From: Corallium rubrum
Taxonomy: Eukaryota > Cnidaria > Anthozoa > Scleralcyonacea > Coralliidae
Length of the DNA stretch: 64,000 nt
Direction of reading: 5' to 3'
Assembly: GCA_964035015.1 (NCBI GenBank)
Contig: OZ036005.1
Location: forward strand, 10,051,012-10,115,011
Under the pieces are notes generated by a model. The model did no database searches. It saw only the letters and a list, made by a program, of their open reading frames with translations, and was not told the DNA's origin. Numbering within the stretch: the first letter of the stretch is position 1; each line of letters opens with the position of its first letter. Positions 5,484-57,573 of the stretch are shown here, one piece after another. The position numbers and the translations under genes were made by a program.

Positions 5484-8233
5484 TTAGTTTTTGCTTCTCG
5501 CGCGTTTCTTGCTATTCTCTCCACGCGCTGTCTCGTGACGGTGTTTCCCACGGTCCCAGAGTGACATTGTTTCTGCCAGCATTTTGACCCCAGATTGTTT
5601 CTTCCTGGTGTTTGTACTTTCCAAGTTTACGTACTGGTTCTTTCTTTTAAAGTTGGTCTTACCTCCTTTGACCGCTGGGCGGAATGATGTACTAGTCGCA
5701 GACTTTTTACGCAGCTTTTTCTGCAAAGACTTCTTTTTAGAATTTTTCTTATATTTCTTGACCTCTAGGCGAGATATTTTAGTTCCAGACTCCTTTCGAA
5801 GCTTTTTTTCCAAAGACTTCTGTTTTTTAAATTTTTTCTTATATTTCTTGACCGCTAGACGAGATGTTCTAGTCGCAGACTTTTTTCTTAGAAATTTCTT
5901 TGGAATAGAAAATTCAAGGTTTTTCTGTGCATGGTTTTGTTTTCCACCTCGGGCATGATTGGAACTCATTTGGGACTCTTTTTCATTCTCCCCATTCTCC
6001 GCCGCTTCTCTGTCGTGCTGACGCAAACGAATGGACTGTTTCTCGTCAGCTTGTTTTGCTTTTAGGCCACCAAGTAGCGTCGACGGAATGTTAGGTGAGA
6101 AAGCATCGGGATTATTGGAGCTACCAGTGGTTCCAGAGGTTTGAGGAGTGTTATTATTCTCTACACTGTTTGATAGCTGGTTAGAAGCAGTTGAGGCAGA
6201 GCTTTGAGCAGTGTCAGAAACCAGATTACCAGAGTTGGATTCGGGCTGAGTAACCTGATTGGCAGGTTTTGGCCCAAACGGATTAGGGATTTGATTAGCA
6301 GAGTTGGAGGCTGAATTTCCAGAATTAGTTCCCTGATTACCCGAGTTGGGCTCGGGTTGGGAAACCTGATTGGCAGGTTTTGGCCCAAACGGATTAGGGA
6401 TTTGATTAGCAGAGTTGGAGGCTGAATTTCCAGAATTAGTTCCCTGATTACCCGAGTTGGGCTCGGGTTGGGAAACCTGATTGGCAGGTTTTGGCCCAAA
6501 CGGATTAGGGATTTGATTAGCAGAGTTGGAGGCTGAATTTCCAGAATTAGTTCCCTGATTACCCGAGTTGGGCTCGGGTTGGGAAACCTGATTGGCAGGT
6601 TTTGGACCAAACGGATTAGGGATTTGATTAGCAGAGTTGGAGGCTGAATTACCAGAATTAGAATTGGTTGCCTGATTGTTAGGTTTAGTGCCCTGATTAA
6701 AAGGGTTGGGAACTTGATTACCCGCGTTGGGCTCGGGTTGGGAAACCTGATTGTCAGGTTTTGGCCCAAACGGATTAGGGATTTGATTAGCAGAGTTGGA
6801 GGCCAGATTACCAGAATTAGAATTGGTTGCCTGATTGTTAGGTTTAGTGCCCTGATTAGAAGGGTTAGAAACCTGATTACCAGAGTTGGGCTTGGGTTGA
6901 TTAACCTGATTAGTTGGTTTTGGAGCAAAAGGATTAGGGATTTGACCTGCAGTATTGGAGAGTTGATTAACAGGGTCCGGTTCGCCACCCTTTTTAGGAG
7001 GACCGATTCCTTGGAGAATAGAGTTAGGAATTGGATTACCAGAGTTAAAAACTTCAGGATTGGTGACATGATCGGTATTTGGGCTGGGGGTAGTCCCCTG
7101 ATTATTAGAGTTAGTCTCCTGATTATTAGAGTTAGTCCCCTGATTCACAAGGTTAGTCCCCTGATTATTACGACTAGTCCTTTGATTATTAGAAGCAGTC
7201 CCCTGATTATTAGAATTAGTTCCCTGATTATCAGGATTAGTTCCCTGATTATTAGCAGCAGTGCCCTGATTATTAGAATTAGCTCCCTGATTATTGGCAG
7301 CAGTGCCCTGATTATTAGAATTAGCTCCCTGATTATTGGCAGTAGTCCCCTGATTATTATAATTAGTTCCCTGATTATTAGCAGCAGTCCCCTGATTATT
7401 ATAATTAGTTCCCTGATTACTAGCAGCAGTCCCCTGATTATAAAGGTTAGCCCCCTGATTATAATTAGGGTTAGTTCCGCGATTGTAAAGGTTGGTTCCC
7501 TGATTATAAAGGTTAGCCCCCTGATTATAATTAGGATTGGTTCCCTGATTGTAAAGGTTAGCCCCCTGATTATAATAAGGGTTGGTTCCCCGATTATAAA
7601 GGTTAGCCCCCTGATTATAGCTAGGGTTACTCCGTTGATTGTTAAGGTTTGTCCCCTGATTGTAAAGGTTTGTCCCCTGATTATAAAGGTTAGTTCCCTG
7701 ATTACCAGAGGTTTGCACTTGATTGGCCGGGTAGGCAAAGCTAGCAGCTTGATTAGCCATGTTAGTGAGTTCGTTTACAGGTTGACTGGGTACTCTTACA
7801 TAATAAGTTTGACTTGGTGAGACAGCGGTATTCTGAGGAAACGGCTGCTGCCGTGGTGGAGAGAGATGTTGCTCCGCTTGCGATGCGTAACCCGGATGTA
7901 ATCCAAGTTGAGGTTGTGGTTGAGGTTGAGGTTGAGGAAGAGGCTGGTTATAAGGTGGAGCCTGCGGTACAGGATCCTCGGGGACTGGTATCAAGTGAAT
8001 CTTCGTAGCCTCGGTCGGCTTTGGACAGGGACATGGGTCAGAGCATGTGCTACAGCTGTCGTCATCCGGCTCTGTTTCGTCACAAGGACATGATCTAGGT
8101 TCAATCGATCTCTTCTTAATGTGTTTTCTTTTAGACGTGAATGCACGATGAAGAATTTTATGGCTTACTTCTCGTTCTTTAGAATTTTCAGGCATCGATA
8201 ACGAGCTGTTGATACGATCGTCAATACTTGTTC
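5484..8233 (-). CDS. Gene A exon 2: secreted NQGTN-repeat, lysine-tailed protein
   Basis: I do not recognise this gene. The exon encodes 915 residues, and with exon 1 at 10617-10803 it gives a protein of about 978 residues. The acceptor TTTTTAG ends at 8234; joining it to exon 1 (phase 1) keeps one open frame through twelve codons before the first internal Met at 8195. In order: a basic stretch; a small Cys cluster with Asp/Glu (about 111-132); a Pro/Gln-rich stretch; several dozen short NQGTN-type repeats; five 37-residue repeats containing NQIPNPFGPKP; and a Lys-rich tail with three copies of a KKLRKKSAT-like unit. There is no membrane segment after the signal peptide, so it is probably extracellular. 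The low complexity suggests a matrix, mucus or adhesive role, which is inference. A possible ATTAAA poly(A) signal lies at 5315-5320. Long open frames on the opposite strand here are by-products of the repeats. Confidence 0.8.
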
Positions 8234-8239
8234 CTAAAA

Positions 8240-8390
8240 ATTAGCATAAGTAATAGCGTGGTTTCAAGTGCAATTCGGAAAAAAACATGCACGAGTGAGT
8301 TTTTCAAAGACTATCAAAATTGCACGAGTGCGAAGGACAAGTTCTACTTGAGGTCTTTGAAAAACTCACGAGTTATATAATTTTACTTAT
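8240..8390. repeat. Palindrome family TAAGTAATAGC...AAAAACTCACGAG
   Basis: GTGAGTTTTTCAAAGACTAT is inverted as GGTCTTTGAAAAACTCACGA. The same family is complete at 56906-57080 and starts again at about 63985 at the window edge. It lies in the gene A intron. Confidence 0.75.
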
Positions 8391-8817
8391 TAATAATATA
8401 CATGTAAAGGTTAGACAAATGTTCTTCCTGCTACGAAGTTACGTACCACTCATTACAGTCCACTTCTCGAAGCTTCAATGGTTTAAAACTACTTCGCTTT
8501 GTTCACTAAAACGTCAAACGTTTTACTCATAGCATCTAACCTTATTTGGTCTTCTTGTAGGAATTTTAATGACAATATCAGGAACGTAACAGGGGGTGGG
8601 GACGTCCCCCCCCCCCCCTCCCCCAATAATTTGCTCTGACTCAACTGATCAGCGGTCGTAACATAAAATCCTAAGACCTTAACAATTAAAGATCAATCTT
8701 TTATTGGTTTTAACATGCTGGAAATTACTCTCAAAAGTCAGAAAGTGTTATTTCAGAGACCTTATATTTCAAAAATTTCCGGGGGCATGCCTCCGCCCCA
8801 CCCTCCCAGTCAGCTAA

Positions 8818-8930
8818 AACAATTGTTCACCTCAGTGTCGGTGAACAGTGTAGACATTCACCTCGCCGCTTCGCTGCTCAGTGAATATATCCAGCACTAC
8901 TCACCTCCATTTCGGTGAATAATAGTTAAA
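8818..8930. repeat. Palindrome, CACCTCAGTGTCGGTGAA family (copy 1)
   Basis: Hairpin with GCTTCGC near the apex. The closely related near-perfect palindrome is at 33681-33782. Confidence 0.78.
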
Positions 8931-9019
8931 TATACATCTTAATAAGCTTTTTTAGCCTCGTTTGTGTGTCTGAAATTCAAAAGAATCCTTGCTTCACAAC
9001 GAGGTCAGAAAGGCTAATT

Positions 9020-9201
9020 GGGTCACTCCAGAAAACATCCACACCTCCCGCACGGAGGAAATGTGAATTGACCCCTCCCCCCTTCGGACGTCCTAGTACA
9101 TTTTACTATTATCAGAAGTAGATTTACCCCCCTCCCCTCCCCTCCCCGGATGGCACAAATTTTCTCTGTGGGAGAGGTATGGATCTTTTCTGGAATGACC
9201 C
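9020..9201. mobile_element. GGGTCATTCCAG MITE, ATT duplication (copy 2)
   Basis: A 182-bp copy with ATT at 9017-9019 and 9202-9204. The insertion site lies inside a longer palindromic repeat; the reverse-complement copy of that repeat at about 29140-29345 lacks the insertion, which fixes the ATT duplication directly. Confidence 0.93.
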
Positions 9202-9300
9202 ATTTAGATGCACATAAAAGAGCGCAATCATTTAAATTTGTGTCCATTATGAAAGTGGTCTATACTAGGACGTTTTAAGTACTGTTTAATAAACGAGCAG

Positions 9301-9364
9301 GAGTGTTTTATCAGATATAAAGACACGAGGCGAAGCCGAGTGTTTTTATATCTGATAAAACACG
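9301..9364. repeat. Palindrome TTTTATCAGATATAAA with GGCGAAGCC apex
   Basis: Perfect-looking hairpin; the reverse-complement copy is at about 29142-29240. Both belong to a longer repeat (8935-9370 and 29140-29390); the first has been split by the MITE at 9020-9201. Confidence 0.85.
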
Positions 9365-9372
9365 AACTGCGA

Positions 9373-9374
9373 GT

Positions 9375-9405
<31 letters not shown>

Positions 9406-9407
9406 TT

Positions 9408-9442
<35 letters not shown>

Positions 9443-9459
9443 TTTTATTTATTTATTAT
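9373..9459. repeat. (TTTA)n microsatellite
   Basis: About 86 bases of TTTA with two one-base shifts. Confidence 0.97.
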
Positions 9460-9462
9460 GGG

Positions 9463-9660
9463 GAAAAAATCGCAAGTTGCAGGAAGGGTGTTACACGTTC
9501 AGCAACTTGCGAATTTTGTTGTAAACCCATCCACCTTTTCTTGCAACTTGCAACACAGCAAAAATGACAAAATCGCAAGTTGCTACGAGGTGTTACACGG
9601 TGCAATTTTTTATGCAACTTACAACATTCAGTGATATGTTGCAAGTTACAAGAAAAATCG
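9463..9660. repeat. GCAACTTGC word-rich palindromic repeat
   Basis: Repeated ATCGCAAGTTGC, GCAACTTGCGAAT and TTGCAACTTGC in both orientations with GTGTTACAC between them. Resembles the subterminal-word MITEs but the ends are unclear. 9661-10320 shows further diverged repeat only. Confidence 0.6.
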
Positions 9661-10334
9661 TATCAAATAACAGTACCTTTACCGAGGCCCGAAGGGGGTT
9701 GCGGTTACCGCTAACCATAGTTAATAGAACGCATACATGGTTTGGAAAGTCATCCAAAGTCATTGTTCTATGTTTTTGTTTAAGTATATGGAAATTTGTG
9801 CAACTTCACGGTATTGTATTTTCTGTATAATGAAGCAGTCATCCAATAGCAACGATCGGGTTTAATAGTGTGGTCGTTCATCGTCACGTGTTGTAGTGCT
9901 TCGTCGTCACGTGCTCATATAATTTACTTCCATATAGGGAACTCCATTGTCGTTCAACATGACCATTACTTCAAGTTGAGAGACAATAGAGCTTCCAAAG
10001 TGAACCATATGTTTATTAACTATGCGCTAACCTACTACTTAGTTCAAGACCACAGAGGTTGCCTAAGATAACTGAGTTACTGAGTTCTTTATCACAGAGG
10101 TTGTCTAAAAAACACTTCGGTTGCGATGATAAATCCTTTATCACATTCATATAATATATATTAGCCTGGGGCATTAACTTGATTTAATTTTCACATGCCT
10201 CGGTTTCCTTTGGGGAATATATTCGATAGCCTTAGCAAAACAATAGATTAATATTCCCTCTAATATTCCCCTCAATACTTCTTTTCTATTGTGACTCCTG
10301 TCAACCTCGTCATGTGAAAATTAAGTACGTTATT

Positions 10335-10415
10335 TTGAGGCTCCTCCGGGATATGTGTTTATTCACCTCGGGCTTCGCCCTCAGTGAATAAATCACATAT
10401 CCCCTCGTGGCCTAA
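10335..10415. repeat. Palindrome GGGATATGTG...CACATATCCC
   Basis: GGGATATGTGTTTATTCAC is inverted as GTGAATAAATCACATATCCC, with GGGCTTCGCCC at the apex. Confidence 0.8.
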
Positions 10416-10616
10416 AAGTAACCTATACTTATTGTCGTTGGTAGTAATTATTATAAATAAACAACCGCAGTAGATCAAAGAAAACCAAGGTGATCATGAA
10501 CTAATATCAATTAAAGTTTAGTTAAAAATCAAATTACTGCGAAACTTTAGTATAACATCCACTTAACACGATAACTAAATAAAAACAAACACAACTTTAT
10601 TATTTAAATAACTTAC

Positions 10617-10803
10617 TTTCCCCGTGTAAACTTGGCGTTCGAATTGTATTTCTGGCACGTCGCTCTTTAAGCGATAATCTTGACAATTTCCCGCCAGTAT
10701 TATTAAAAGAATTTGGCGGCGTTTGAGACCAAGAAACTACGGCTACCAATCCGATAAGTGAACAAAGTAAAAATACACCAGAGATATATAAACGGGCTTC
10801 CAT
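10617..10803 (-). CDS. Gene A exon 1: signal-peptide exon
   Basis: This exon has 62 codons plus one base, from an ATG at 10803-10801 to the donor GTAAGT at 10616-10611. The first 26 or so residues are a clear signal peptide: MEAR, then a hydrophobic run VFLLCSLIGLVAVV, then small residues. A basic segment with KERRARN follows. The splice (phase 1) joins 8233 in frame. The intron of about 2.4 kb holds MITEs, a (TTTA)n tract and palindromes. Genes B and C have the same layout of signal-peptide exon, phase-1 intron and single large exon, which supports this model. The transcript was not seen, so a 5' non-coding exon is possible. Confidence 0.75.
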
Positions 10804-11109
10804 TCTTTGACTATTTATGAGAATTGTTCGGGTTATATTGGATTTTCAGCTGTAATCGAGTGGATAACAGTTCTATCCATCCCAAACTAATATTAATATA
10901 TTATATCTTGTTTTCATTCATGTTTACTCAATGTCTTTTTGTTGTTTCTTCGAATAAATGAAGTTGTAATGTAATTTATTTCGACTGTCGTAATTCTTTT
11001 AGTTGACACCGACAAGCAAACATGGCGCATCTTATTGGCGAAATTATAGCTTTTTCATGCTGTGTACCTGCCAAGAATGACAGATTGAACAATGTATTTC
11101 ATGGTAGCT

Positions 11110-11250
<141 letters not shown>

Positions 11251-11561
11251 GAAGAGTGCCTGGGCGCCAAGGAGACTGGGAGAATGTACCTTGCTTGCAT
11301 ACTCTGGAAATAGAGAACGTTCAGTTTTGCGTTTCCTGGCCGCCTTGGAACGGCTTTAACGTGATTGATCAGTGAGCTTTTTTAATCAATTGAATTAGTT
11401 TGGTCTTGGCCGTTTCTCTTTGGGATATGACTAGAATGCAATTTGGAATTAAGTTAAGAATGGCTTAGCTTGTAATTGTTTTAGAGAGATCGTTTATAAC
11501 TCATTCCTGTCCGAGGGCTTCCCGAGATGAATACAGAATAAAATACTAAAGACCAATTCGG

Positions 11562-12079
11562 CAGTGGCGTGGTGGCAAGTTTTAGGCTGGGGTGGCCAGA
11601 TTAGCTTTGGCGCCCCCCAAGAAAAAAAAGGGGGGGGGGAAAGAGAGAGAAAAGAAAAAAGAAAGACATTACTGTATTTGATAAGTGGTCATATTTTTTG
11701 TTTTATAATAACTTAAGTAGCAATATATAATATTACAACAAACAACACCAGGCCAATGCGAGCACCAAAGTAGCGCCAAACCTCTAGGGGGGTCCGGGAG
11801 CATGCTCCCTCGGAAAATTTTGAAATCTAGAGTCTCCGATATGCCATTTCCTGCATTTTGGAGTGAGATTTTACAGAATTCTGAAGATTATAAAACTTCA
11901 TAGAAAACACAAAAGATTACAGATTTTAGACCTTTATGTCCCTCATTGAAGACCTAGCTATACAAAGAAATAGGTTTATTTCGTTAAGTTTTGGCGCCCT
12001 TGCTAATTTTGGCGCCGCTTCTGCAACCCCAGCTGGGGTGACCTTGTCCCCCCCCCCCCCCCCTGCCACCACGCCACTG
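11562..12079. mobile_element. hAT-like MITE with 8-bp duplication CAATTCGG
   Basis: The inverted ends are CAGTGGCGTGGTGGCA and TGCCACCACGCCACTG. Exact CAATTCGG lies at 11554-11561 and 12080-12087. The shared core (GGGAGCATGCTCCC, then TCTAGAGTCTC, then GCCATTTCCTGCATTTTG) lies at about 11790-11880, and a poly-C run lies near the right end. Confidence 0.93.
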
Positions 12080-12576
12080 CAATTCGGACAGGAAAGAGTT
12101 AAACATTACGCAAGGCTGACAAAACTGAATCGGGTATATTGTTAATAAAGAGGTTTAGGTTCAGTACAAGTTCGAGTCAGTGGCGGAAATTCACTTTTTC
12201 AGGTTGGGGGGCAAAGCGTCATAAATTTCCGACAAATTTCATAAATATTCGACAAATGTACGAAAAGCGTTGGATTTTGCCTGGGGTTTTCCCCCCTTTC
12301 TTTGTCGAATATCTCAGACAAATTGACTATTTTTGGGAGGGGGCGAAGCTTATCATGCGATCATTGCCGTCAAGGAAAACTTGTTCAACCGCGTACACAC
12401 GAGCAATTATGACTTGTCAAGGAAAATTGTTTGGAAAAAAACTTGTTCATCTTACACATGAGCAATTAGGAAAGCTACCAAGGAAAGCTACTAAGGAACT
12501 TGTCAAGGAAAACTTGATCGTCCGTGCGGGGCTTTAGGTAGATGCCATTCCCGCCAAAATTGTGCAGACTGCTCCT

Positions 12577-12578
12577 CA

Positions 12579-12607
<29 letters not shown>
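12577..12607. repeat. Poly-C tract
   Basis: About 31 C in a row. A CAGTGGCGGAA sequence at 12179 may mark the left end of a decayed hAT MITE that includes it. No gene in 12610-13440. Confidence 0.9.
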
Positions 12608-12611
<4 letters not shown>

Positions 12612-13440
12612 CCTGAAGCGTTATAGCAAACTCGAATTAGCTCAAACACGAATTCGCATATTGCATATCTAATATTAATATTTGTCAAGTTATTTTACAC
12701 TCCAAATTGTGCTTTACTGTGTTGTCGATATGCTTGGCATTGTGGTATAATCGTTACGGAAGATTATATGATTGTTCAGTTTCGTTTAGATCAGTTTTTG
12801 GTTGTTAATTTGCGCTTTAGTTAATTAAATGTGTGTAATACTCATTCGAGAGTTGGAAGTGGAAAGTCAAAACTAAATGCAGTCCCTACAGGCTCTCATG
12901 CATTCTCTCCTGAGAGAACAGGGCCTTAAGCCCGCGTTTTCCATTAGGCGATTTTTTTCGCGCGAAGTTTTTTTCGCCAGTGTTTGCAATGAGCATGCGC
13001 AATGGCGTTAATAGGACAGCCTTTCACCAAAAAATTTCGCTCCGCGGTACGTCGCTGGAAAAACTAGGGTCGAGTTCTGCTTTTTCTTGCTTTCTTCGCT
13101 GGAATTGCGTGGATTACTGAAGCTAAAAACCAAAATAATCAAAATGGAGGACAGTTCCTGTGGAGATTTAGCTACAGAAGCAATTAATATTCAAATGCTG
13201 GGTGCCATTTTATTGAACAAGCAGGAGTACTGAGCATACATAGATGCGTACATGATTGAGCTCTCTTTTCCACTAACGTTCAGCATAAATTTGGCTAACG
13301 AAGAACCTTTCTGTACCTTAATATTTGCCTTCGTTTACAATAACAAAATCTCATTCTTCTTATACCAGTTATATTCCATCTCTTTTTTAAAGCAGTCATT
13401 TTATTTTACTGAATATATTTTCTTGCTTATCCCTATCCAG

Positions 13441-13966
13441 ACTGGGGGGGGGGGGGGGGGCGGAAAGTGCCCGCGCTGAATTTAAAAGTTAATATCTCCT
13501 AAACCATTACAGGTATGGTTCTGAAATTTTATGACTTTTCCTAAATATGTATGGGCTTTATATGTGGAAAATTTGGTGAAAAAATATTACTCCAAAAAAA
13601 GTTACAGCGGAGTCGTGAACACCTACCAACACTAAATTTCAGCCGACAATTTTTATTATGCTTGGTTTTATAATAGTTACAATAAAAGTAAGCACTTTTT
13701 AATAAAGAGAAACTATTTTTTTGATATACTACCTTTTTTATGTTAACAAAACAATAAGAAATTTTTTTTTGGAAATTCTAAAAATCCTGGGTGTTTGCAA
13801 CTAATGACGTCATAATGACGTCATAATTTGTCGCCATGACAACATAAGTGTAACACATACTTGAACAAGGCATACCATCCACCTGTAAAAGTTTCGTCAG
13901 AATACACCAAATGGTTTAGGAGATATTGACCGCGGGCACTTTCCGCCCCCCCCCCCCCCCCCCCAG
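13441..13966. mobile_element. Poly-G/poly-C-ended MITE
   Basis: The inverted ends are CTG followed by about 18 G at the left and a similar run of C followed by AGT at the right. Next to these are GCGGAAAGTGCCCGCG and CGCGGGCACTTTCCGC, then TAATATCTCCTAAACCATT and AATGGTTTAGGAGATATT. No coding sequence is visible. Confidence 0.83.
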
Positions 13967-14048
13967 TCCCAGAAGTCAAAAAAAAAAGCCCAGTCTAAAT
14001 AAAATAAAATATAAATAATATAAATATAATGATAAAATACCCGTTCAT

Positions 14049-14170
14049 GTGACGGTGACGGTGACGGTGACGGTGACGGTGACGGTGACGGTGACGGTGA
14101 CGGTGACGGTGACGGTGACGGTGACGGTGACGGTGACGGTGACGGTGACGGTGACGGTGATAGTGATAGT
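14049..14170. repeat. (GTGACG)n hexamer repeat
   Basis: About 18 perfect hexamers, then GTGATA and (AAT)n variants. Frames reading HRHRHR across it are artefacts. Confidence 0.97.
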
Positions 14171-14279
14171 AATAATAATAATAATAGTAATTATACAATA
14201 AAAATAATAATTCAAATTTTTATACAGACGATCTACATCACCACATGATGCTTTTCAGAATAAATCTACGTTAAAATAA

Positions 14280-15065: not shown

Positions 15066-15302
15066 TGTCGTGTGTGTTTTCACTTCATCAGAACTTTTTT
15101 TAACTTTATAGATAGATAGCGAGTGCAGCATTAAGTACCAGGTCCTGCGCAGTCGTGCATTAAATCAACATGACGATCGATAAGTGAAAGCTTTGTTTTA
15201 TCTTGGTTTTCACACAGAAACAATGATTATGCTTCAGTTGTTTTTTGAAATAACCACAAAGAACTAAGGTTTACACAAGTTAGATTCTACTGAAATACTT
15301 AG

Positions 15303-15308
15303 TTTATT
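15303..15308 (-). promoter_or_regulatory. Likely poly(A) signal of gene B
   Basis: Canonical AATAAA on the minus strand, about 130 bases after the gene B stop. Confidence 0.5.
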
Positions 15309-15438
15309 TGCTCTCAATTTCCATGACTTGAGTTCCGCTTTGATAATCTACTCCCTTCTGCAGAAATTTCAAGCTCATAATCTAATCGTTAACTACAGCT
15401 AACCAGCGCACGCGTAGAATATTTTCCGCAGTGCAATC

Positions 15439-16718
15439 TCAATGAACGTTTGTACGTTTACACGTGCAAGACACGTGTCTTTCTGACCCACAAGTGCACT
15501 GATTGTTTTCGAAAGGGACTGTTTCAGGACAAGAACAAGGACAACAGAAGCAATCACAAGTGTCCTCAATTTCATATCCCCCTTCTTGAAAAGTTTGACT
15601 GACTGCTCTGTTGCTTGGAGCTGAAGGATATGACGTAGGGTAAACGTAGCTTGCCGATGATCTCACGACATTGTTGTCACTAGGAAACTGTGAAAATGAC
15701 GAAGCGTCATTAGCGCACGGGCACGGTGTCGCTGATTGGCTTGCGCACCCGCATTGATAGCTGGGATAGGACGCAAATTGTGAGCACGCGCATGGGCAAC
15801 AGGGGCATGAGCATGTTTGATCCGATGACGAACCTCCCGTCCAAGGTGCGACTTGATTACCGCTCGGAATTGCGTTATTTGGTAATGAGTTTGTGGGGCA
15901 TGAACAAGAAGTTGGCGACGAGGCCTGACACTGGCAGTTCGATCCCGAATAAGTAAGTGCTGTGGGCTGGAACCGAGTTTCACTGTTGCTGGTCGCGCTA
16001 CATGGGCAAGGGACTGGTGGTGACTTCTGACAACCGCAGTCATAATTCTCGTGACCAGACTGAGAACAAGAGCATAAACAGCACGGGCAGATGCAACCTG
16101 AATTACCCAGTGGATGACCCGCCTTGGGAAAAATCATCAATGTTTGATGACCCTGCGGGCTATTGTGCTCCGCCTGCTCAGACTGGCAAGAGCATTTAAC
16201 TGGCTTCTCACACGAACACTCGAACTCGTTCAGCGGTCTAGACGACGAACAAGCACAAGAACAACAAGGACAGTCACAAGGTCGAGTTGTCGATTCCACG
16301 GGTTTTGAAAGAGCTTGTCGAAGCTTCTGTCCTGCTCCTTCAAGCTGTTCGCCATAGACTGTAACAAGAAACGTCTTTGAGGGAAGATTGGAAGCGCCCT
16401 GGACAGCAGTGGACGTTTGTTGGAACGTCTGAGCCTGAGTTTGTTGCTGCGTTGGTTTTACTTTAAGATAAACATAATAGTCTTTACCATTTGGTAAACT
16501 GTATACCACAGGTGTTCTGGCCAGGTTGTCGTCGTGGATATCAATGGTGGACTTTCTTTCACCTTTTAGAAAAATTTTATGTTTCAGTGTGGTTTTACCG
16601 GTGAAGTTCTGTTTCACGCTCTTTTTGGGTCCGCTGGCCATTTTTAAAGTTTTAATCTTTGTTGGTAATTTTTGGTTGACTTCTAAGTGCAACTGTTTTC
16701 TGCTTTTGTCCACGGGTA
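15439..16718 (-). CDS. Gene B exon 2: secreted protein with four CxCxCCxCxC modules
   Basis: I do not recognise this gene. The exon adds 425 residues, giving a protein of about 470 with exon 1. The acceptor CCTAATTAAG ends at 16719; the G left by exon 1 plus TA gives Val and the frame stays open. Residues 45-135 are basic, then Gln/Thr-rich. Four modules follow at about 192-222, 253-284, 347-379 and 432-464. Each has ten Cys spaced C-x-C-x-C-C-x-C-x-C, 9-10 residues, C-x-C, 5-7 residues, C-x-C. A half module (CxC ... CxC) lies near 306-318. This is not the minicollagen Cys pattern and not the 8-Cys SCRiP pattern. Metal binding or disulfide cross-linking outside the cell is plausible but inferred. 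An AATAAA lies at 15308-15303, about 130 bases after the stop. Confidence 0.8.
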
Positions 16719-16800
16719 CTTAATTAGGAAAAAGAATAAATCAATTACTCCTTTTCGTGCATTGCTATTGTTTCTTAGTGATTAATGCATATGTCTATTT

Positions 16801-17311: not shown

Positions 17312-18017
17312 AATAAACAAACAAACAAACAAACAAACAAACAAACAAACAAACAAACAAACGAACGAACGAACGAACGAACGAACGAACGAACGAACGA
17401 ACGAACGAACGAACGAACGAACGAACGAACGAACGAACGAACGAACGAACGAACGAACGAACGAACGAACGAACGAACGAACGAACGAACGAACGAACGA
17501 ACGAACGAACGAACGAACGAACGAACGAACGAACGAACGAACGAACGAACGAACGAACGAACGAACGAACGAACGAACGAACGAACGAACGAACGAACGA
17601 ACGAACGAACGAACGAACGAACGAACGAACGAACGAACGAACGAACGAACGAACGAACGAACGAACGAACGAACGAACGAACGAACGAACGAACGAACGA
17701 ACGAACGAACGAACGAACGAACGAACGAACGAACGAACGAACGAACGAACGAACGAACGAACGAACGAACGAACGAACGAACGAACGAACGAACGAACGA
17801 ACGAACGAACGAACGAACGAACGAACGAACGAACGAACGAACGAACGAACGAACGAACGAACGAACGAACGAACGAACGAACGAACGAACGAACGAACGA
17901 ACGAACGAACGAACGAACGAACGAACGAACGAACGAACGAACGAACGAACGAACGAACGAACGAACGAACGAACGAACGAACAAACAAACAAACAAACAA
18001 ACAAACAAACAAACAAA
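17312..18017. repeat. (AAAC)n-(GAAC)n-(AAAC)n microsatellite
   Basis: About 50 bases of AAAC are followed by an uninterrupted GAAC array from about 17361 to 17982 (roughly 155 units), then about 35 bases of AAAC. All open frames across it on both strands are artefacts of the repeat. Confidence 0.98.
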
Positions 18018-18288: not shown

Positions 18289-18612
18289 CTATGCCATTCT
18301 GTTTCTAACTTCGGTCATGAAGGCGGCATACTTGGTTCCCTTATAACCATGGTCTGGGCATTCCAAGGCTACTTCTTGCAAGAAATGCAGGATTCCAACC
18401 ATACATGTCGGGTACGACATGTCAAAAACATAGTAACAGGATATAAGGTCTACTAAAGCCTCAGTGAGGTTCAGATTAGGGCATTCTACAAATACCTGGT
18501 CTTCACCAGAAATGAATATCTGTTCGATTTTGTCCACATCAGCACCAACACAAGTAAATATCTTCTCAGGTGCAAAAGCTTCATATATATGCATGCATGT
18601 ACTTTCTGTCAT
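18289..18612 (-). CDS. 107-codon open frame inside a CACTA-like transposon
   Basis: This open frame from ATG to TAG has ordinary amino-acid composition: ECPNLNLTEALVDLISCYYV, then FDMSYPTCMVGILHFLQE and a short basic end. It resembles the C-terminal part of uncharacterised metazoan proteins that have a YYVF-x-x-x-YP stretch followed by a conserved helix, but I cannot name the family. It sits between the two subterminal repeat arrays of the element at 16913-19454, so it may be a captured host exon or the last exon of an element protein. No upstream exon was identified. Confidence 0.45.
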   Translation of the reverse strand: MTESTCMHIYEAFAPEKIFTCVGADVDKIEQIFISGEDQVFVECPNLNLTEALVDLISCYYVFDMSYPTCMVGILHFLQEVALECPDHGYKGTKYAAFMTEVRNRMA

Positions 18613-19454: not shown

Positions 19455-20886
19455 CAGTTATTGTTCAACAATTATACAATACTCAGCTATTGTTCAACAA
19501 TACTCAGCTATTGTGCAACAATACTCAGACATTGTTCTACAATACTCAGTCATTGTTCTACAAGTACTCAACCATTGTTCTACAATACTCAGCCATTGTT
19601 CTACAATACTCATACATTGTTCTACAAGTACTCAGCCATTGTTCTACAATACTCAGCATTTTTCCACAATACTCAGCCATTGTTCTACAATACTCAGCCA
19701 TTGTTCTACAAGTACTCAGCCATTGTTCTACAATACTCAGTTATTGTTCTACAATACTCAGTCATTGTTCAACAATACTTAGTATTGTGCAACAATATAC
19801 TCAGCCATTGTTCTACAATACTTAGCTATTGTGCAACAATATAGTCAGCCATTGTTCTACAATACTCAGCCATTGTTCTACAAATACTCAGCCACTGTTT
19901 TACAATACTCAGCCATTGTCCTACAAGTACTCATGCAGCCATTGTTCTACAATACTCAGTTGTTGTTCTACAATAATATCAGTTATTGTTCTAAAATACT
20001 CAGCCATTGTTCTAATACTCAGTTGTTGTTCTACAATACTCAGTTATTGTTCTACAATAATCAGCCATTGTTCTACAATACTTAGCCTTTGTTGTACAAT
20101 GCTCAGCCATTGTTCTACAATACTCAGACATTGTTCGACAATACTCAGCTATTGTTCTACAATTCTCAACCATTGTTCTACAAGTACTCAGTCATTGTTT
20201 TACAATACTCCGTCATTGTTCTACAATATTCAACCATGCATTGTTCTAGAATACTCAATTAGTCATTGTTCTACAATACTCAGCCATTGTCCTAAAAGTA
20301 CTCGGCCATTGTTCTACAATACTCAGCCATTGTTCTCAGGGACGTAGCCAGGATTTTGAAAGGGGGGGGGGGCGGGAGCCGAAATCAGAATAAATTTAAG
20401 GGGGGGGTCCAGGGGCATGCTCCCCCGGGACATTTTGAAATCGAGAGTCGCTGAAATGCCATGCATTTCCCGCTTTTGGAGGAAGATTTTACGGACTCTA
20501 AAGGTTAAGACGTCATATAAAATACTCAAAACACGCAAACGTCACATAGATACTCAAAATGCATACACTCAGTAGATTTAATACACTGTTTACAGTTTAT
20601 TTCCTGACACAATGGTATATTGCATCAGTTTTGTAGTTACGTGTCTGTTGTTTTATATCAAAAGAGGGGAGCTGCGGCTCCCACGGCTCTCCCCCCCCCC
20701 CCCTGGCTACGTCCCTGATTGTTCTACAACACTTAGCCATTGTTGTACAATACTCAATCATTGTTCTACAATACTCAGCCTATGTTATACAACACTGAAC
20801 ACTCGGCCATTGTTCTACAATAATCATTGTTCGATTCTACAATACTTAGCCATTGTTCTACAATACTCAGCCATTGTTCTACAATA
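19455..20886. repeat. 21-bp satellite, unit ATTGTTCTACAATACTCAGCC
   Basis: The array covers 19455-20336 and 20718-20886, with about two more units at 16874-16912 on the far side of the CACTA-like element. Units are 20-22 bases and imperfect. The array is interrupted by a hAT MITE at 20337-20717. It lies in the intron of gene B. Confidence 0.93.
20337..20717. mobile_element. hAT-like MITE with 8-bp duplication ATTGTTCT
   Basis: The inverted ends are CAGGGACGTAGCCAGG and CCTGGCTACGTCCCTG. The exact direct duplication ATTGTTCT lies at 20329-20336 and 20718-20725, inside the satellite. Poly-G and poly-C runs lie near the ends. It carries the GGGGGCATGCTCCCCCGG core shared with other copies in the window. 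Confidence 0.93.
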
Positions 20887-20965
20887 CTTCTATAGGTAAC
20901 AAATGGCCAGTCCAAGCCTGCATGTATTGCTGCAACGAATCGTACAGAAACAAAAACAGTCTTAC

Positions 20966-21098
20966 CTTTACTGATTTTAGTAATCATATCTCTCGACTTT
21001 TTCCAATATATCTTGCCTCGATTTGTCTTCGTTAATGTCCATCCTTTTCCACAAACCCACAACGACACAAAAACAACCAAAAACGTCCAAAACTTCAT
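20966..21098 (-). CDS. Gene B exon 1: signal-peptide exon
   Basis: This exon has 44 codons plus one base, from an ATG at 21098-21096 to the donor GTAAGAC starting at 20965. MKFWTFLVVFVSLWVCGKGW is a typical signal peptide; a Lys/Arg-rich segment follows. The phase-1 splice to 16718 gives a continuous frame. TTTTCAG lies 13 bases upstream of the ATG and could be the acceptor of a non-coding first exon. The 4.2-kb intron contains a satellite, a CACTA-like element, a hAT MITE and a very long (GAAC)n tract, so the join rests on frame and on architecture shared with genes A and C. Confidence 0.7.
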
Positions 21099-21339
21099 CG
21101 TTTCGGCTTTCTGAAAACATACAAACTTTAAAACGGCATTTTGATAGTTATCGGACTAGAATTACATCGTAATCGTTACAGTCGATTTACAACCGTTTTT
21201 AAATCTCAAGTGAACTTAATTCTGAGACAAATGAAGTCTTACTTAATTATTTAAAACGTTCAATATAGACAAAAATACTAGCTCTGTGTGTTTTCCTTCT
21301 GGTTGCGTGTTTCACGGTTCAGCGACGGCTTGAGTAATG

Positions 21340-22030
21340 GGCTCTCCACCTGACAAGTAAAATTGTCTGGCGTTAGACAGAGTAAAATACTACAAAAGTC
21401 TGCTTGGTTCGAAACTGACGAACGATACGGTATGCACAGCATTGAAGGGGTTATGAAGTCCTTAACTATTTCACTGTATACCGAGAGCTCTTCACTTGAC
21501 AAGTATAAAATCGTCTGACGTTTAGATAGAGTAAAATATTCTTAAGTCTGCTTCGTTCGAAAACGAACCACACGCGGTAGACAGAGTTAAGGAGATAGTT
21601 CTTAATTAGGGAGCACGGCCGCCATACGACACAGTTCAGACCACGGATCGCAGCTATAAGATGTTAGGTTTTATAGAGGGAGGAAAACCGGAGAACCCGG
21701 CGAAAAAAAACAAAGCACAGGAGAGATCAGCTACAACTCTACTTACATGAGTTCTAAGCTCGACAACGGGGTTATTTCCAAGCGGTCACTCATGCATCCG
21801 GGCTTAACTTTTGGTGAGAGGCAGCGCGCTAACAGCACACGCCAACGGGTGCCTGGAGCGCCTTTGATATACCTCGACAGAATTGCAAAGGACGCAGATC
21901 AACGTGGCCGTCCCGCTGGCTGCAAGTAACGATGATTAGATGACAAGCAGGATTTATCCTGAAACCATTTTTAACTCCTTCACTATTAAAGGCTGTCTAC
22001 TTGATAAGTAAAATTGTCTGACGGTAGGCA
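21340..22030. repeat. Dispersed GAGTAAAATCGTCTGGCGTT motif, three copies
   Basis: Copies at about 21349-21393, 21494-21540 and 21993-22030 share TGACAAGTAAAATTGTCTG then GCGTTAGACAGAGTAAAAT. The first two lie about 145 bases apart as a degenerate tandem. The same motif recurs at 28318 (minus), 60373 and 62798. No gene supported in 21099-22037. Confidence 0.7.
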
Positions 22031-22037
22031 AAGAATA

Positions 22038-22532
22038 AAGCCCTGGTCAAACGAGGATGAGAGTTGATGAGAGTCGATGAGAGTTGCAACTCTCGGTCGC
22101 GTTTTACCACCAACTCTCATCGACGCTCATGCACTCTTATCAACTCTCATCAACTTTGAGCTGGTTCAAATTTTAATGAGAGTTGATGAGAGTTTTTACT
22201 CGTTTGACCGGTCATGAGAGTTGGCATATGAGAGTTGATAAGAGTTTAGCGGCTAGCGGCTTGTGACTTTTCGTGACAAGAAAAGGCAAGAATGCAAAAT
22301 ATATTTGTCTATTTATTTGTCCAGTACGAGATTGTAAAAATAATAACCTCGAAATTCGTTCCTAGTCTCCCTGCTACACGCGGTAAATCCTACAACTCTC
22401 GTCAACTCTCATGGTCAACTCTCATCAACTCTCATCCTCGTTTGACCGGGGCATGAGAGTTGAGAAAACTCTCAGACAAACTCTCGCTTGCGCCAACTCT
22501 CATCAACTCTCATCCTCGTTTGACCGGGGCTT
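22038..22532. mobile_element. TWA-type MITE, GATGAGAGTT subterminal words
   Basis: The ends are AAGCCCTGGTCAAACGAGG and CCTCGTTTGACCGGGGCTT with TA on both flanks. Inside both ends, many direct and inverted copies of GATGAGAGTT or AACTCTCATC form the arms. No coding sequence is visible in the centre. Confidence 0.85.
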
Positions 22533-22702
22533 TACTCACTTGAATTAGCAAGGATTCAATATACTTCAATTTTAGTATCGTTCTATACAGTTTTTCATAC
22601 TTCTACCGTGAATGCTTTAGACTTTGATCTGATCTGATCTAGTTATACTACTAATATGCCTTGCAATATTTTTCTTTTTTTACTTAACCCTTTACAGGGC
22701 GA

Positions 22703-22927
22703 TTGATGCTTTCTGTTGGAAAACGAGAATTTATGATTGCTAAAACGTATAGGCCCACTCAACCATGCAGCTTAAAAATGTGCAATTGCCGAGATACCAC
22801 CAAATGCCCTCTTGAAGGTGCCTGTTTAACGAAGAATCTAGTTTACCAAGCCGTCGTCACAACCAACAACCACAAACATGTCTACATCGGTATGACAGAA
22901 CATGACTTTAAATCACTGACGTTTTAG
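22703..22927 (+). pseudogene. Penelope-like element GIY-YIG endonuclease fragment
   Basis: The frame contains CNCRDTTKCPLEGACLTKNL then VYQAVVTT and VYIGMTE, which is the Cys-rich linker and the start of the GIY-YIG nuclease typical of Penelope-like retroelements. It stops soon after. A 40-base sequence (CTTTCTGTTGGAAAACGAGA...) at 22709-22748 recurs inverted at 22919-22960. Confidence 0.72.
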
Positions 22928-23398
22928 CAATCATAAACTCTCGTTTTCCAACAGAATGTATTAATCCAACACAGCCCTATCCAAACACATTTGGGACTTG
23001 AAAGGATGTTGGTATCGATTTCTAGATTAAGTGGTCCGATCCATCTTGAAAAGAGCAAGCGTTTACAGAAGTGGAAATACCAGATGTATAATCTTTGTCT
23101 TCAAGAGAAGATTTGCATTTTGAATGTTTTTGTCCAAGTTTATGAAAAATTTTTGAACTTTCACAGTTACTGAACATATTGTGTGTTTTTTTGTATAATG
23201 AAGCAGTCATCCAATAGCGACGTTTGGGTTCAATCACTCAACCGTACTGTTTAAATATTGATGAAGCTAAAACAAAATATTTGTGCACCTTCAGGTACCT
23301 TTCAACATAAATCGTATAGTTTGATTGTTAACCGCTTTGAAGTTTGCCGAGTTTCCAAACATGCATGTTTATTTTCTATCAGTAAATAATTATAATTA

Positions 23399-24175
23399 AT
23401 AACATGACTTGAGGGAAATTAGCGATTAAATTTCTCCGCCGCCGAAGATTTGTGAGGCAAAGGGGAAATTTAATCGCTAATTTCCCGAAAAGTCATGTTA
23501 TTAGTTTGTAATATTATGATCGCCGAAGAAAACTTTGAGAATCTTACCGACAGGAAATTTACACGGTTGATCAGAGAAGTTGCATCTAATTTTCTCGTGC
23601 ATGTTGATGAGGGAAAATATATGCAAGCGGGAAATTTAGAAGAAGACAAAGGATTTCTTTGTCTTCTAATTTTCCCTCATCAACATGCACGGGAAAATTA
23701 GAAGACAAAGGATAAATTTCCCTCTTGCATGAACGATGAGGGAAATACGAGGTTTACATTCCCTTGGAGAACAAGAGAATCCGAGGCGATCATGGTATTA
23801 CTATGATAATATCATGTTTGCGGGGATTTCTTTTGTTCTCACAGGTCCATTAACAACTAATATACCTCATTATATTCATTTTTACTAATACTACCTAGTA
23901 CCTCCGTTGATGTCAAACCAGGTCTGATTAGAACTAATCATACCCAGTTTGACGTCAACGGAGGTGACAACAAAAGAAATTCCCGCAAACATGATATTAC
24001 AAAGGTATAGCATAAAAAGATGTGCATTAGCTATTAAACACCCACTCGATTTGGGTCATTTAGTAAACTCCCTCGGGCCTTTGGCCTTCGAAAATTTTGC
24101 TAAATGACCCTTATCGAGCTGGACGTTTAATAGCTAATACACATGCATCTTTTCATGCTATTACTTATAAATATA
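23399..24175. repeat. Run of four short palindromes
   Basis: Separate hairpins at 23400-23500 (GGGAAATTAGCGATTAAATT), 23560-23755 (TAATTTTCCCTCATCAACAT), 23805-24000 (ATCATGTTTGCGGGGATTTC) and 24008-24170 (AGATGTGCATTAGCTATTAA). No gene in 22965-24800. Confidence 0.75.
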
Positions 24176-24827
24176 TACCGTCTGCAATTGTGTACATGTA
24201 CATATTTCAAGGTTTGGTAAAAACATGTTTTACTGCCAAAGGTATATAAAAAGTTTCATAATGAGGTTATCGACTGATTTCATTGGATTTTTACGAGTTT
24301 TGTGATGTAGGCAAGTTTATCGATTACCGAGCAGCGTAAAAAAGCTACGAAATAACACGTTTTACTGCTTAATAATACCAACAAATGCAAAAACTAAGTT
24401 TCTAAAACTTGTACAGTGTTCTTTGTTTGATACCAATAGCAGAAATTTTCTTAATTTGTCTCTTTTCGTGCTACGAAAACGTTTCCGTGGCGGCCATCTT
24501 GGTACTCCCAATTCGTCATTTTCGGTGGCTTTATTTTTGGATCCGGATACATACAGGACTACCCTGCAAGTCAGAGCTCCTTTCCGACCTACGCAGGCTT
24601 CGAGGGGAAGTGGGCTCTGCCAACAAACTCGATCTTCACCCCAAGTTTGGGGCGAGTCAGTTAGGATTTAAACTGGTCAAACAAGTTCTAGTTTAATCAG
24701 CACCTGGGCCCAAAATAGTATCAAATAACGGAATGCAAATAATTTTCTGCTGGAACAATTTGTGGAGCATGCGCACTAGCGATAGCTGCTCAACTTGTTC
24801 TCAAACATGGCGGCTATTTGGAACCAA

Positions 24828-26038
24828 CATGGCGTTATTAGCAGAAGTCCCTCCGGCTTCTGATTGGCCGATAAATTTAGCACTTCCGCATGACGTTAGC
24901 ACAAATATATCGCTCTTTGAGTACGGATTGATTCTAGATTGTGGTTCTATTGCGAATACTCAGCTTTAGTGGCGTTGCAGGGGGGGGGACTGGGGGGGAC
25001 GCGTCCCCCCCCCCCCCCCCCCCAGTTCTCTTGAAGACCAATTTTGAGATTCTTCCTAATCTGGTGAGAAACCGGATTTTTTTATTTTTTTTTGGGGGGG
25101 GGCATGTAATGATTCCAAGTGCTCAGCTCACACCGCTAGCTGGAAAAATAGTTTACAAGTGTGTGAATGTGTTTTTCATATCTTTTCTTGCGTTAGTTCA
25201 TTCAGGGCCGTATCCAGGCGGTTTGAGACGCCGGTACACCGGTTTGGGCGCCCAAACTAGGTGCCCAAAAATATAAACTATGTACTACAATCTGAGAAAA
25301 ACCGTACAAGAATTTAAAAATCACCCCTCAGAATGTTAAAAATCACATCTCAGAATGTAGGAAATGGCATTTCCGAGACTCTAAATTTCCCGGGGGGCAT
25401 GCCCCCGGACCCTCCTAGAGCGTTCCTACCATGTGTTAGGTTCACACTATATAGAATTAACATGAAGTACCAACAATTATAACGTCATACAGATGACGTC
25501 ATATAACGATGACGTCATCATTTTTTCCCCCCACTCTCCCAGGTCTGGCGACGCCACTGCTCAGCTTCGGAAACAAGATTAGTGCACACGAACGCAACTG
25601 CACATGTCAACTCACAGAGATCTGATGTATTAAAAGAGCAGTCTCGGATTTTAAATCGGTATTAACATCAGAACGAAAGATCCGCTCTATTATACGACAA
25701 CGTGTTTGCAACTTAGTTGTACCCGCTCTTAAGCTTTGTTTGGCGACTCATTCTATTGCCAAACGTGCACAGCAATCTCTTCAAATAATTAATCTTTAAT
25801 TTTCATCCACAATACTTCGATTAGATATACTTCGATGTTCGAATAGCATTAACATTAACATCATTTTATTAAAATGTGTTATTCATCGGCTAAACCTCAG
25901 TCAAATACATTTCAATTATTTTTGAATCCCAAAATTAAATATTCTTGTCGACGACAAATCACCTTGCCAACATAAGTGCTAAATATATCGGCCAATCAGA
26001 AGCCGGAGGGATTCCTGCTAATAACGCCATGTTGGAAC
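24828..26038. repeat. Inverted repeat enclosing a hAT MITE
   Basis: AACATGGCGTTATTAGCAG and CTCCGGCTTCTGATTGGCCG at 24828-24905 recur inverted at 25962-26038. The region between holds the hAT MITE and 400 bases of AT-rich sequence without a gene. 26039-26409 is the 3' flank of gene C. Confidence 0.75.
24967..25559. mobile_element. hAT-like MITE with 8-bp duplication CTCAGCTT
   Basis: The ends are TAGTGGCGTTGC and GACGCCACTG. Exact CTCAGCTT lies at 24959-24966 and 25560-25567. The shared core is present on the opposite strand at about 25320-25425. Poly-G and poly-C runs lie near the left end. It is nested between inverted-repeat arms at 24828-24905 and 25962-26038. Confidence 0.92.
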
Positions 26039-26409
26039 TAGACTTGCTCCAAGTCCCTTGTTTATCGGCACACGCGCGCGTGCCCACGCGGGCTCCAGGC
26101 GTGGGAGGAAACAAGGGGGGCGTCACCGGTCACTTTTCTGACAGGAGGAGTGTCCCTGAAAACCGTGCTAATCATTTCAATTTTTTAACTATTTTATGAA
26201 TCATTAAACTATTATTGAGCCCGTTTATCGCAAAATATCATGATTTGTAAGTGTCTCGCTGCCAACCTCGTACTCAGGGTTTTACCTCCACTCCTCCTAA
26301 CCACAACCCTCTGGGATCGAAGAAAGTTTGTCTTCGTTTTTGTTTATCTTCAAACTAAAAACTAGAAAAGAGGGACACTTATTACTAATATTTACATATA
26401 CGGTGTGGT

Positions 26410-27095
26410 CTAGCACCCTATAGGTTTGTATATCAATTGTCCATCAGAGTTTTTGCCAAGATTTATCGTTTGAAAAGGGTTTGTTGCCGAATTGCAAGCT
26501 GTCTGTCCTGGTGCCGCATTTGGTAGTGATAGCCCTGTGTTTGGTGGTGAAAATCCTGTATTTGGTGGTGATAGTCCTGTATTTGGTGGCGACAGTCCAG
26601 TATTTGGTGGTGAAAATCCTGTATTTGGTGGTGAAAATCCTGTATTTGGTGGTGAAAATCCTGTATTTGGTGGTGAAAATCCTGTATTTGGTGGTGATAG
26701 TCCAGTATCTGGTGGTGATAGTCCAGTATTTGGTGGCGATAGTCCAATATTTGGTGGTGATAGCCCTACATTTGGAGGTGATAGTCCTGTATTTGGTGGT
26801 GATAGCCCTAAATTTGGTGGTGATAGGCCCATATTTGGTGGTGATAGGCCCATATTTGGTGGCGCTTGTCCTGGAACGTCTGGTGATGTCCCTTGCCCTG
26901 CAGCATTTCCCTGCGACAACTCTTGTATAAGAGGCTGATTATTTTGTGGTGGTTGCTGATTGGCTTGTGTGTTCGACTGTTGAAGAGTGACGTGAATATT
27001 CTTGTCTGTAGCTGACAGTGCTGCCATGGGTAAGACTTTACCATTCACAATAACAGTTGTCTTCTTTTTCAGTTCTGACTTTTTTCCCATGTTTG
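26410..27095 (-). CDS. Gene C exon 2: secreted PPNTGLS heptad-repeat protein
   Basis: I do not recognise this gene. The exon encodes 227 residues, for a total of about 279 with exon 1. The acceptor TATATTCCAG ends at 27096, and G from exon 1 plus CA gives Ala and an open frame. A basic stretch ([12 protein letters not shown]) is followed by VNGKVLP, a Gln/Asn-rich linker, then about 16 heptads of the form SPPNTGL or SPPNTGF, and a short tail ending in IGC. Only two Cys are present in this exon. The heptads are encoded by near-identical 21-base units, so copy number may vary between alleles. Extended Pro/Gly heptads suggest an elastic or structural extracellular protein (inference). The antisense open frames are shadows of the repeat. 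Confidence 0.78.
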
Positions 27096-27248
27096 CTGGA
27101 ATATATTACAATATTTCAATAGGTTATCTGTTGTGTTGTGTAGTGTATTTTATGATTTGTACCAGATGCAAAACAAAAACAAGAACAGAATAATAATGAT
27201 GATGACAGTGACAGTGACAGTCAACTTTGTACCAAAAGCAATTTTGCG

Positions 27249-27587
27249 TGACAGTGACAGTGATAGTGACAGTAACAGTGACAGTGACAGTGACAGTGAC
27301 AGTGACAGTGACAGTGACAGTGACAGTGACAGTGACAGTGACAGTGACAGTGACAGTGACAGTGACAGTGACAGTGACAGTGACAGTGACAGTGACAGTG
27401 ACGTGACGTGACAGTGACAGTGACAGTGACAGTGACAGTGACAGTGACAGTGACAGTGACAGTGACAGTGACAGTGACAGTGACAGTGACAGTGACAGTG
27501 ACAGTGACAGTGACAGTGACAGTGACAGTGACAGTGACAGTGACAGTGACAGTGACAGTGACAGTGACAGTGATAGTGATAGAGATA
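27249..27587. repeat. (ACAGTG)n hexamer repeat
   Basis: Over 50 hexamers with one shift near 27400. It lies in the intron of gene C, about 150 bases from the large exon. Open frames through it are artefacts. Confidence 0.98.
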
Positions 27588-28080
27588 GACTCGATTGTAA
27601 ATGCTTATGTAGTATAATTATTATGTACATTACTACCATTTGCGATCAATCGTTAGGCACGAGATTTCAAACGCGCTGTTTACGTTTCAAACGTGCAACT
27701 TGAACTGGAAAACGTTTCAACAATAGCCTGATGAATCACACGCCATTTTTTGACAGGTGATTGACTTGGGGTATTGTTGAAACGTCAAATTCTCCAGTTA
27801 AACTTGTACGTTTGAATCGTAAAAGAACGCGTTTGAACTCTCACGCCTAACTGCTGATCGTAAATGGTAGTATGCAGCACTATTATATAATCTTATAGTC
27901 ATACAGTAAATTAGCCTCTCAGGCAACTCTGTGCTTCCCACAAGTAAATTATCACGGACGAACCGACGATTGAACGGTTGGGCAAGATCACCGTTTGCAG
28001 AAAAAAAAACCAGACACTGATACGATGTTGATCTTTACCGCTAACCAAAACACTAATTCTAATCACAACTTTAATCTTAA

Positions 28081-28263
28081 AGCCTGGTTTTCATATGTCG
28101 CCGATCGTCGGCGATTTGTGATTTAGTTGCATGTTAAAACGGGAAGTGCAGCAGCATGTTAAGTAATAAAGAACAATACAGAAAAGCCGTGCTTTTATTC
28201 TTTTACTTAACATGCATCTAAATCATGGGTCGGCGACGATCGGCGACATATGAAAACCAGGCT
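28081..28263. mobile_element. TWA-type MITE (CGATCGTCGGCGAT family)
   Basis: The ends are AGCCTGGTTTTCATATGTCG and CGACATATGAAAACCAGGCT. TAA lies at 28078-28080 and 28264-28266. It is 183 bp, in the intron of gene C. Confidence 0.92.
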
Positions 28264-28502
28264 TAACCCTTTGACTCGCATGCATGCATGTTGACGCACC
28301 TTTAGTATTTTACTATGGCTAACGCCAGACGATTTTACTCGTCATAAGGGAAGACTCCTAGTAGTCACTCAAGGGGTTAAACAAGCAGAACTTACTCATG
28401 AAGTAATGAATACTGATTGACTAATAATTTTGCGCTTCACCTAAACTTGGCCAAATCATATAAATGACAAAATTCTATTAGAACTCCTTCTACAGGACTC
28501 AC

Positions 28503-28656
28503 CGCTGTTAGGGGACTTTATCAACTTTCGTTTGCCCGCATTTGGTCTATTCAAATCTTTTCCATGTTTTGTTGACTTTACTGGGGCAGAGAATACACAA
28601 GTTGTTTGGATTAGCAAAAGTAAGACCCATCCTACAAATGGCACCATTGGCTTCAT
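28503..28656 (-). CDS. Gene C exon 1: signal-peptide exon
   Basis: This exon has 51 codons plus one base, from an ATG at 28656-28654 to the donor GTGAGT starting at 28502. MKPMVPFVGWVLLLLIQTTC is a strong signal peptide, with likely cleavage after VFSA. The mature N terminus is basic and has a GKRK that could be a dibasic processing site. The phase-1 splice to 27095 is in frame. The 1.4-kb intron contains a TAA-flanked MITE and a long (ACAGTG)n tract. Confidence 0.75.

Positions 28657-53226: not shown

Positions 53227-53260
<34 letters not shown>

Positions 53261-57538: not shown

Positions 57539-57573
<35 letters not shown>

Follow-up and report, generated by a model that had tools for sequence, protein, structure and literature searches.

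Three neighbouring genes for putative secreted repeat proteins with one exon plan and unlike products in Corallium rubrum

A locus of the red coral Corallium rubrum raises the question of whether three neighbouring genes with one exon plan and unlike products are real genes for secreted proteins, and whether they share an ancestor. The genes, here called A, B and C, lie head to tail, all on the minus strand, within positions 5484..28656 of the window, by which we mean the whole stretch of 64,000 nucleotides analysed (contig OZ036005.1, positions 10051012-10115011), and coordinates below are those of the window. They are probably three real, apparently single-copy and lineage-restricted genes for secreted structural proteins, and proteins of this kind, orphan, secreted and repetitive, are familiar as a class.

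The gene models were rebuilt from the sequence by joining the exons and translating them, giving 10803-10617 + 8233-5484 (minus strand, 978 amino acids (aa)) for gene A, 21098-20966 + 16718-15439 (minus, 470 aa) for gene B, and 28656-28503 + 27095-26410 (minus, 279 aa) for gene C. All three joins are in phase 1 and follow the GT-AG rule, with an open frame throughout and one terminal stop each, and the number of full codons in the first exon is 62 for A, 44 for B and 51 for C. The tandem minus-strand order, the exon plan, the phase and the junctions 10617/8233, 20966/16718 and 28503/27095 proposed in a preliminary description of the locus were thus all reproduced. The predicted donors are AAA/GTAAGT in A, AAAG/GTAAGA in B and AGCG/GTGAGT in C, and the acceptors are TTTTTAG, CTAATTAAG and ATTCCAG. 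The splice sites had been called strong, and GT and AG are indeed present with open frames, but the word is overstated because the acceptor of B (...CCTAATTAAG) is weaker than those of A and C. The introns of B and C hold very long microsatellites, AACG x175 (17316-18014) and GTGACA x56 (27248-27579), and in the 4.2-kb intron of B there is also a 107-aa ATG-to-stop frame (18292-18612, minus) among AACACACC-type palindromic repeats, without a Pfam match and possibly a mobile-element fragment.

The large exons are coding, since the repeat units of A and C vary mainly at third codon positions and the Cys columns of B mix TGT and TGC. When all pairs of the 16 repeat units of gene C are compared the differences at codon positions 1/2/3 number 99/55/252, with 249 synonymous and 157 non-synonymous changes where 29% synonymous would be expected by site count, and the 29 NQGT units of gene A give 193/110/436 differences with 428 synonymous and 311 non-synonymous changes (22% synonymous expected). 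The same tendency is seen with distinct units only, 35/24/107 for 10 units of C and 41/42/99 for 12 units of A. The four full modules of B share 10 Cys columns, and TGT and TGC are mixed in 9 of these. That the frames are open across the repeats carries little weight, as the arrays can be read without stops in other frames too. The region holds many further frames that are open through simple repeats only, as it might if the large exons were non-coding satellite DNA or mobile-element remains and merely looked open, but the third-position bias, the mixing of TGT and TGC and the lack of a second copy in a search of the coral's own genome make this very improbable, and it is already largely refuted.

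Exon 2 of gene A (5484..8233, minus) starts with a basic segment ending in KKR, followed by six Cys, a P/Q stretch, NQGT repeats, NPFGPKP repeats and a Lys/Arg-rich repeat tail, and repeat expansion within the gene is visible from three different arrays. The NQGTNxx array (7091..7704, minus) has units of 7-8 aa, 28.7 copies according to Tandem Repeats Finder (TRF) and a third-position excess, and in the translated frame there are 29 units with 28 spacings of 7 or 8 codons. The NPFGPKP array (6224..6661, minus) has a 37-aa (111-bp) unit in 3.9 copies with 97% matches, and the basic repeat of the tail (5692..5881, minus) a unit of about 30 aa (90 bp) in 2.1 copies (both TRF). Exon 2 of gene B (15439..16718, minus) encodes a basic N-terminal part, four modules of 10 Cys each and a further half module, with 44 Cys altogether; the module reads CxCxCCxCxC...CxC...CxC and has a single CC, the four CC pairs are spaced by about 60 to 95 residues, and the half module has 4 Cys as read from the sequence. 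Exon 2 of gene C (26410..27095, minus) consists of a short N-terminal part, PPNTGLS repeats and a tail with two Cys, the last of which is C-terminal. Its PPN[TMLIV]G[LF]S array (26518..26873, minus) has 17 units of 21 bp by TRF, the last one degenerate, and again a third-position excess. The arrays and translated modules are as first described, and the repeats do differ between the genes (NQGTN, Cys modules and PPNTGLS).

The signal-peptide exons of the three genes are plausible. Exon 1 is predicted to encode a signal peptide followed by a basic segment of 36 aa in A (10617..10803, minus; open, hydrophobic core 2.81), 25 aa in B (20966..21098, minus) and 28 aa in C (28503..28656, minus), where the cleavage points were placed by eye. 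Lys and Arg make up 7/36, 8/25 and 8/28 residues between the signal peptide and the intron, in agreement with the basic stretch noted earlier right after the signal peptide. Genomic position is what favours these exons. With the three exons left out, a strong candidate is found at most 6 kb upstream on the same strand at only 3.6% of sampled points and any signal-exon candidate at 21%, which when cubed gives about 5 in 100,000 and 1 in 100, the strong cut-off of 2.8 having been chosen after the three genes had been seen. Alternatively, the large exons might be genes without introns whose cytosolic products begin at an internal Met, with signal-like frames upstream by chance; a Met in good context (by reading) is located near the start of exon 2 in B (AAAAATGGCC) and C (AAACATGGGA), and signal-exon candidates occur at chance frequency. 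This is improbable, as the first exon-2 Met of A is in poor context (by reading), strong signal exons precede 3/3 genes, gene A avoids N-glycosylation sites, and the acceptors of A, B and C are located 7, 1 and 10 bases inside the points at which their open frames end upstream (8240, 16719 and 27105).

The avoidance of N-glycosylation sequons in gene A is pronounced, with 3 N-x-S/T sites where shuffles give 25.7, although 16% of its residues are Asn, and the numbers are 1 against 4.4 for gene B and 0 against 4.6 for gene C. When each local context is taken once to allow for the repeats, 3/70 unique Asn sites of A are sequons against 12.4 expected (P 0.0008), with the sites inside the repeats being partly dependent, and the mirror motif is found at 14/65. 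The avoidance is most easily explained by a chain that meets the glycosylation machinery of the endoplasmic reticulum (ER) and must stay unglycosylated, and secretion of the product of A, its ER passage itself being inferred, thereby gains independent support. A single literature search listed no paper plainly on the principle of sequon avoidance.

The partial dependence of these sites is one of several points that weigh against three genes for secreted structural proteins. The depletion of unique sequons in B (1/22 against 3.0 expected, P 0.18) and C (0/17 against 1.7, P 0.16) has the same direction as in A but is not significant. A mechanical scan of 344 kb for a signal-like exon with donor, acceptor and frame found 22 true-phase joins, compared with 22 and 19 for two wrong phases, and neither the 31 signal-exon candidates (21-39 in ten shuffles) nor the 8 of the strong class (4-11) exceed the control. 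Open joins alone therefore prove little, as true-phase joins are no commoner than wrong-phase ones and the candidates no commoner than in shuffles. By charge-hydropathy gene A falls on the disordered side and gene C at the boundary, but gene B is ordered, and a single-sequence AlphaFold model of exon 2 of B alone is uninformative, with a mean predicted local distance difference test (pLDDT) score of 36.7 and a predicted template modelling (pTM) score of 0.20.

No named family had been recognised for the three proteins, and none was found in Pfam for A, B and C or among PDB sequences, which were searched for B only. Genes A and B have no Pfam match up to E 1, gene C matches only Clr2 (E 0.25, 12.5 bits with a cut-off of 25) so that no model reaches its cut-off, and the best PDB sequence match of B, with E 1.1, indicates no relative. 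Further copies outside the window had been suggested as a check, and the coral's own genome (a 474-Mb assembly of 312 contigs) yielded none. In gene A, the N-terminal 192 aa of exon 2 match only themselves below E 4, the next matches, with E 4.9 and 6.8, being over a Lys/Arg-rich stretch, and gene B matches nothing but itself at E 0.001. For gene C, where the query omitted repeat units in the middle, 154 matches were reported with 150/266 candidates scored, and three rows are the home locus. Among the matches listed, the others have a best E of 2.1e-6 and lie within residues 24-138 of the query with 23-52% identity, nearly all over the Pro-rich repeat, and none off the home locus reaches the first 23 or last 19 residues; C thus has look-alikes in its repeat only. 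Among frames of at least 180 aa within 100 kb on either side no fourth such gene was spotted by eye, the complex frames not having been examined singly, and a further 40 kb on each side served only the join scans. No publication recognisably on A, B or C was found, but text searching cannot match sequences and this does not imply that they are unpublished.

An extracellular structural role, as first suggested, is the best reading of the three products, and it may work as follows. The signal peptide would take each chain into the ER, and the basic segment that comes next looks pro-like; in A this segment runs to KKR 102-104, a possible cleavage site, while B and C have dibasic sites without a clear pro-boundary. 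Cysteines could then cross-link the chains, mature A having 6 of them, B 44 and C 2, one of which is its final residue. B, with all its 44 Cys after the signal peptide and presumably rich in disulphides, would act as cross-linker, and C, with its C-terminal Cys and a flexible Pro-rich repeat, as linker. The presumably disordered repeats of A and C would form spacers or an extensible filler, unglycosylated, and the product would be an extracellular or cnidocyst-type matrix.

The proteins could instead belong to the skeletal organic matrix or the mucus of a calcifying anthozoan, being secreted-type, of low complexity and without a named family, and galaxin-like genes are reported to be paired or in triplets in one coral genome (PMC12419799). 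An anthozoan would also fit the one exon of the GFP family that was found in the genome (E 1.7e-8), none being present in 14 control genomes. We consider a place in skeleton or mucus unlikely, since the proteins are not acidic (Asp plus Glu 5.4% in A, 6.6% in B and 2.5% in C), N-glycosylation sites are few and the CC pairs of B stand so far apart. There is a slender chance that the locus is a cluster for a cnidocyst or extracellular fibre in which A is a Cnidoin-like, glycan-free N/Q elastomer without minicollagen domains, B a new 10-Cys cross-linker and C a Cys-capped Pro-rich linker, all derived from one signal-exon gene with the coding exon replaced beyond recognition.

The second part of the question is whether A, B and C descend from one ancestral two-exon gene by tandem duplication, with exon 2 replaced through repeat turnover, as has been argued for the Drosophila Sgs and mammalian REST genes. 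Strand, order, phase, exon plan and the basic segment after the signal are common to the three genes, and clustered genes have been judged related despite unlike products (PMC3209443, PMC7556508). Like the Drosophila Sgs genes, where a shared origin is argued from the common position of a phase-1 intron (PMC6352337), A, B and C have the same intron phase at a comparable position (phase 1, 3/3). The position is similar and not identical, because the intron is located 36, 25 and 28 codons past the cleavage points placed by eye, that is up to 11 codons apart. The shared phase is moreover weak evidence of ancestry, since phase-1 introns are reported to be generally over-abundant near signal-peptide cleavage sites (PMC1626468). 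Residual similarity of the promoter, the signal exon or a conserved end, which would be expected in an Sgs- or REST-like family, was not found. Nine DNA comparisons (1 kb upstream, exon 1 and 600 bp of 3' DNA) against shuffles gave lowest P values of 0.045 (A-C upstream) and 0.05 (B-C exon 1), which are not significant for nine tests, and the exon-1 proteins gave P 0.38-0.86. The N-terminal parts of exon 2 are not clearly more similar than shuffles, also when realigned with six gap settings for B-C and one for A-B and A-C (P 0.10-0.34), and the Cys module of B is undetectable in A, as 184/500 shuffled copies score as well as the A segment against the module profile. Within the Sgs and REST groups some genes have kept additional sequence similarity, and others were linked by their location and expression, but for A, B and C the evidence of ancestry comes down to architecture and adjacency. 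The single ancestral gene proposed in the preliminary description thus gains no support from exon 1, the flanks, the exon-2 N-termini or the Cys modules, and a common origin is possible but doubtful.

If A, B and C are secreted structural proteins, they would extend a poorly described set, the lineage-specific secreted proteins of (probably) anthozoans, by three orphans, which include a regular Cys module that matches nothing in Pfam and an N-rich repeat protein with strong sequon avoidance. The locus would then also allow a test of whether genes that lie side by side and have one exon plan but unlike products share an ancestor.

In the surroundings, four of five frames tried at 50510-63684 (minus) are similar to amino-acid permeases, the best one to PF00324 with E 8.5e-8, above the cut-off, and the other three below it, while the frame at 63415-63684 (minus) has no such Pfam match. 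They probably form one transporter gene upstream of the cluster, which we take to be SLC12-like. A 60-bp minisatellite of 4.3 copies (TRF) is found at 38898-39165. About 6.6 to 40 kb to the left of the window there are two adjoining stretches with a like set of large frames (ATPase-like, nucleoside-kinase-like and one of ~1200 aa), which resemble a duplicated Polinton/adintovirus-like element. At window coordinate 127782 (plus), ~64 kb to the right of the window end, a further phase-1 signal-exon candidate is followed by a Q/P-rich frame, MFLFFISLFLQNTAYS...

Four known systems resemble the cluster in part. The Drosophila Sgs glue genes are described (PMC6352337) as secreted repeat genes, some of them clustered, with a phase-1 intron near the signal peptide and products that look unrelated, but their intron splits the signal peptide, whereas that of A, B and C is located 25-36 codons past the likely cleavage point, and Sgs3, 7 and 8 share about 47-51% identity outside the repeats, with none detectable among A, B and C. 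The mammalian REST/semenogelin genes of the semen coagulum (PMC7556508, PMC3209443) are also clustered, and in them one major repeat-rich coding exon comes after the exon for the signal peptide, but REST relatives can retain a similar promoter region and exon 1 (PMC7556508), a likeness not found here. Galaxins and galaxin-like coral proteins (PMC12419799) share with B a secreted type, di-cysteines and repeats; unlike these, B has its CxCxCCxCxC...CxC...CxC unit with CC once per module (none in A or C) and no Pfam match.

In its layout A is reminiscent of Cnidoin, an elastomer of the Hydra nematocyst that is described as having a signal peptide, Cys domains around a repetitive Gly/Gln-rich part and, at 22-111, a putative propeptide with Lys-Arg at its end (PMC4321713). 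Membership of A in a minicollagen/Cnidoin type was rejected, as the pattern (CXXX)4-CC given for the minicollagen Cys-rich domain (PMC2687796) was not found in A, B or C in its strict or relaxed form, and neither a run of five Gly-X-Y nor PPPP was found in them. Unlike Cnidoin, A has no C-terminal Cys domain, its repeat is rich in N/Q/G/T and its tail in Lys/Arg. Like Cnidoin, A has a predicted signal peptide, a long putative pro-segment with a basic end, a short Cys-rich part and a long disordered repeat, and N-glycosylation sites are almost absent from A and lacking in Cnidoin (PMC4321713), so that by analogy A, though no Cnidoin itself, may work in a similar way.

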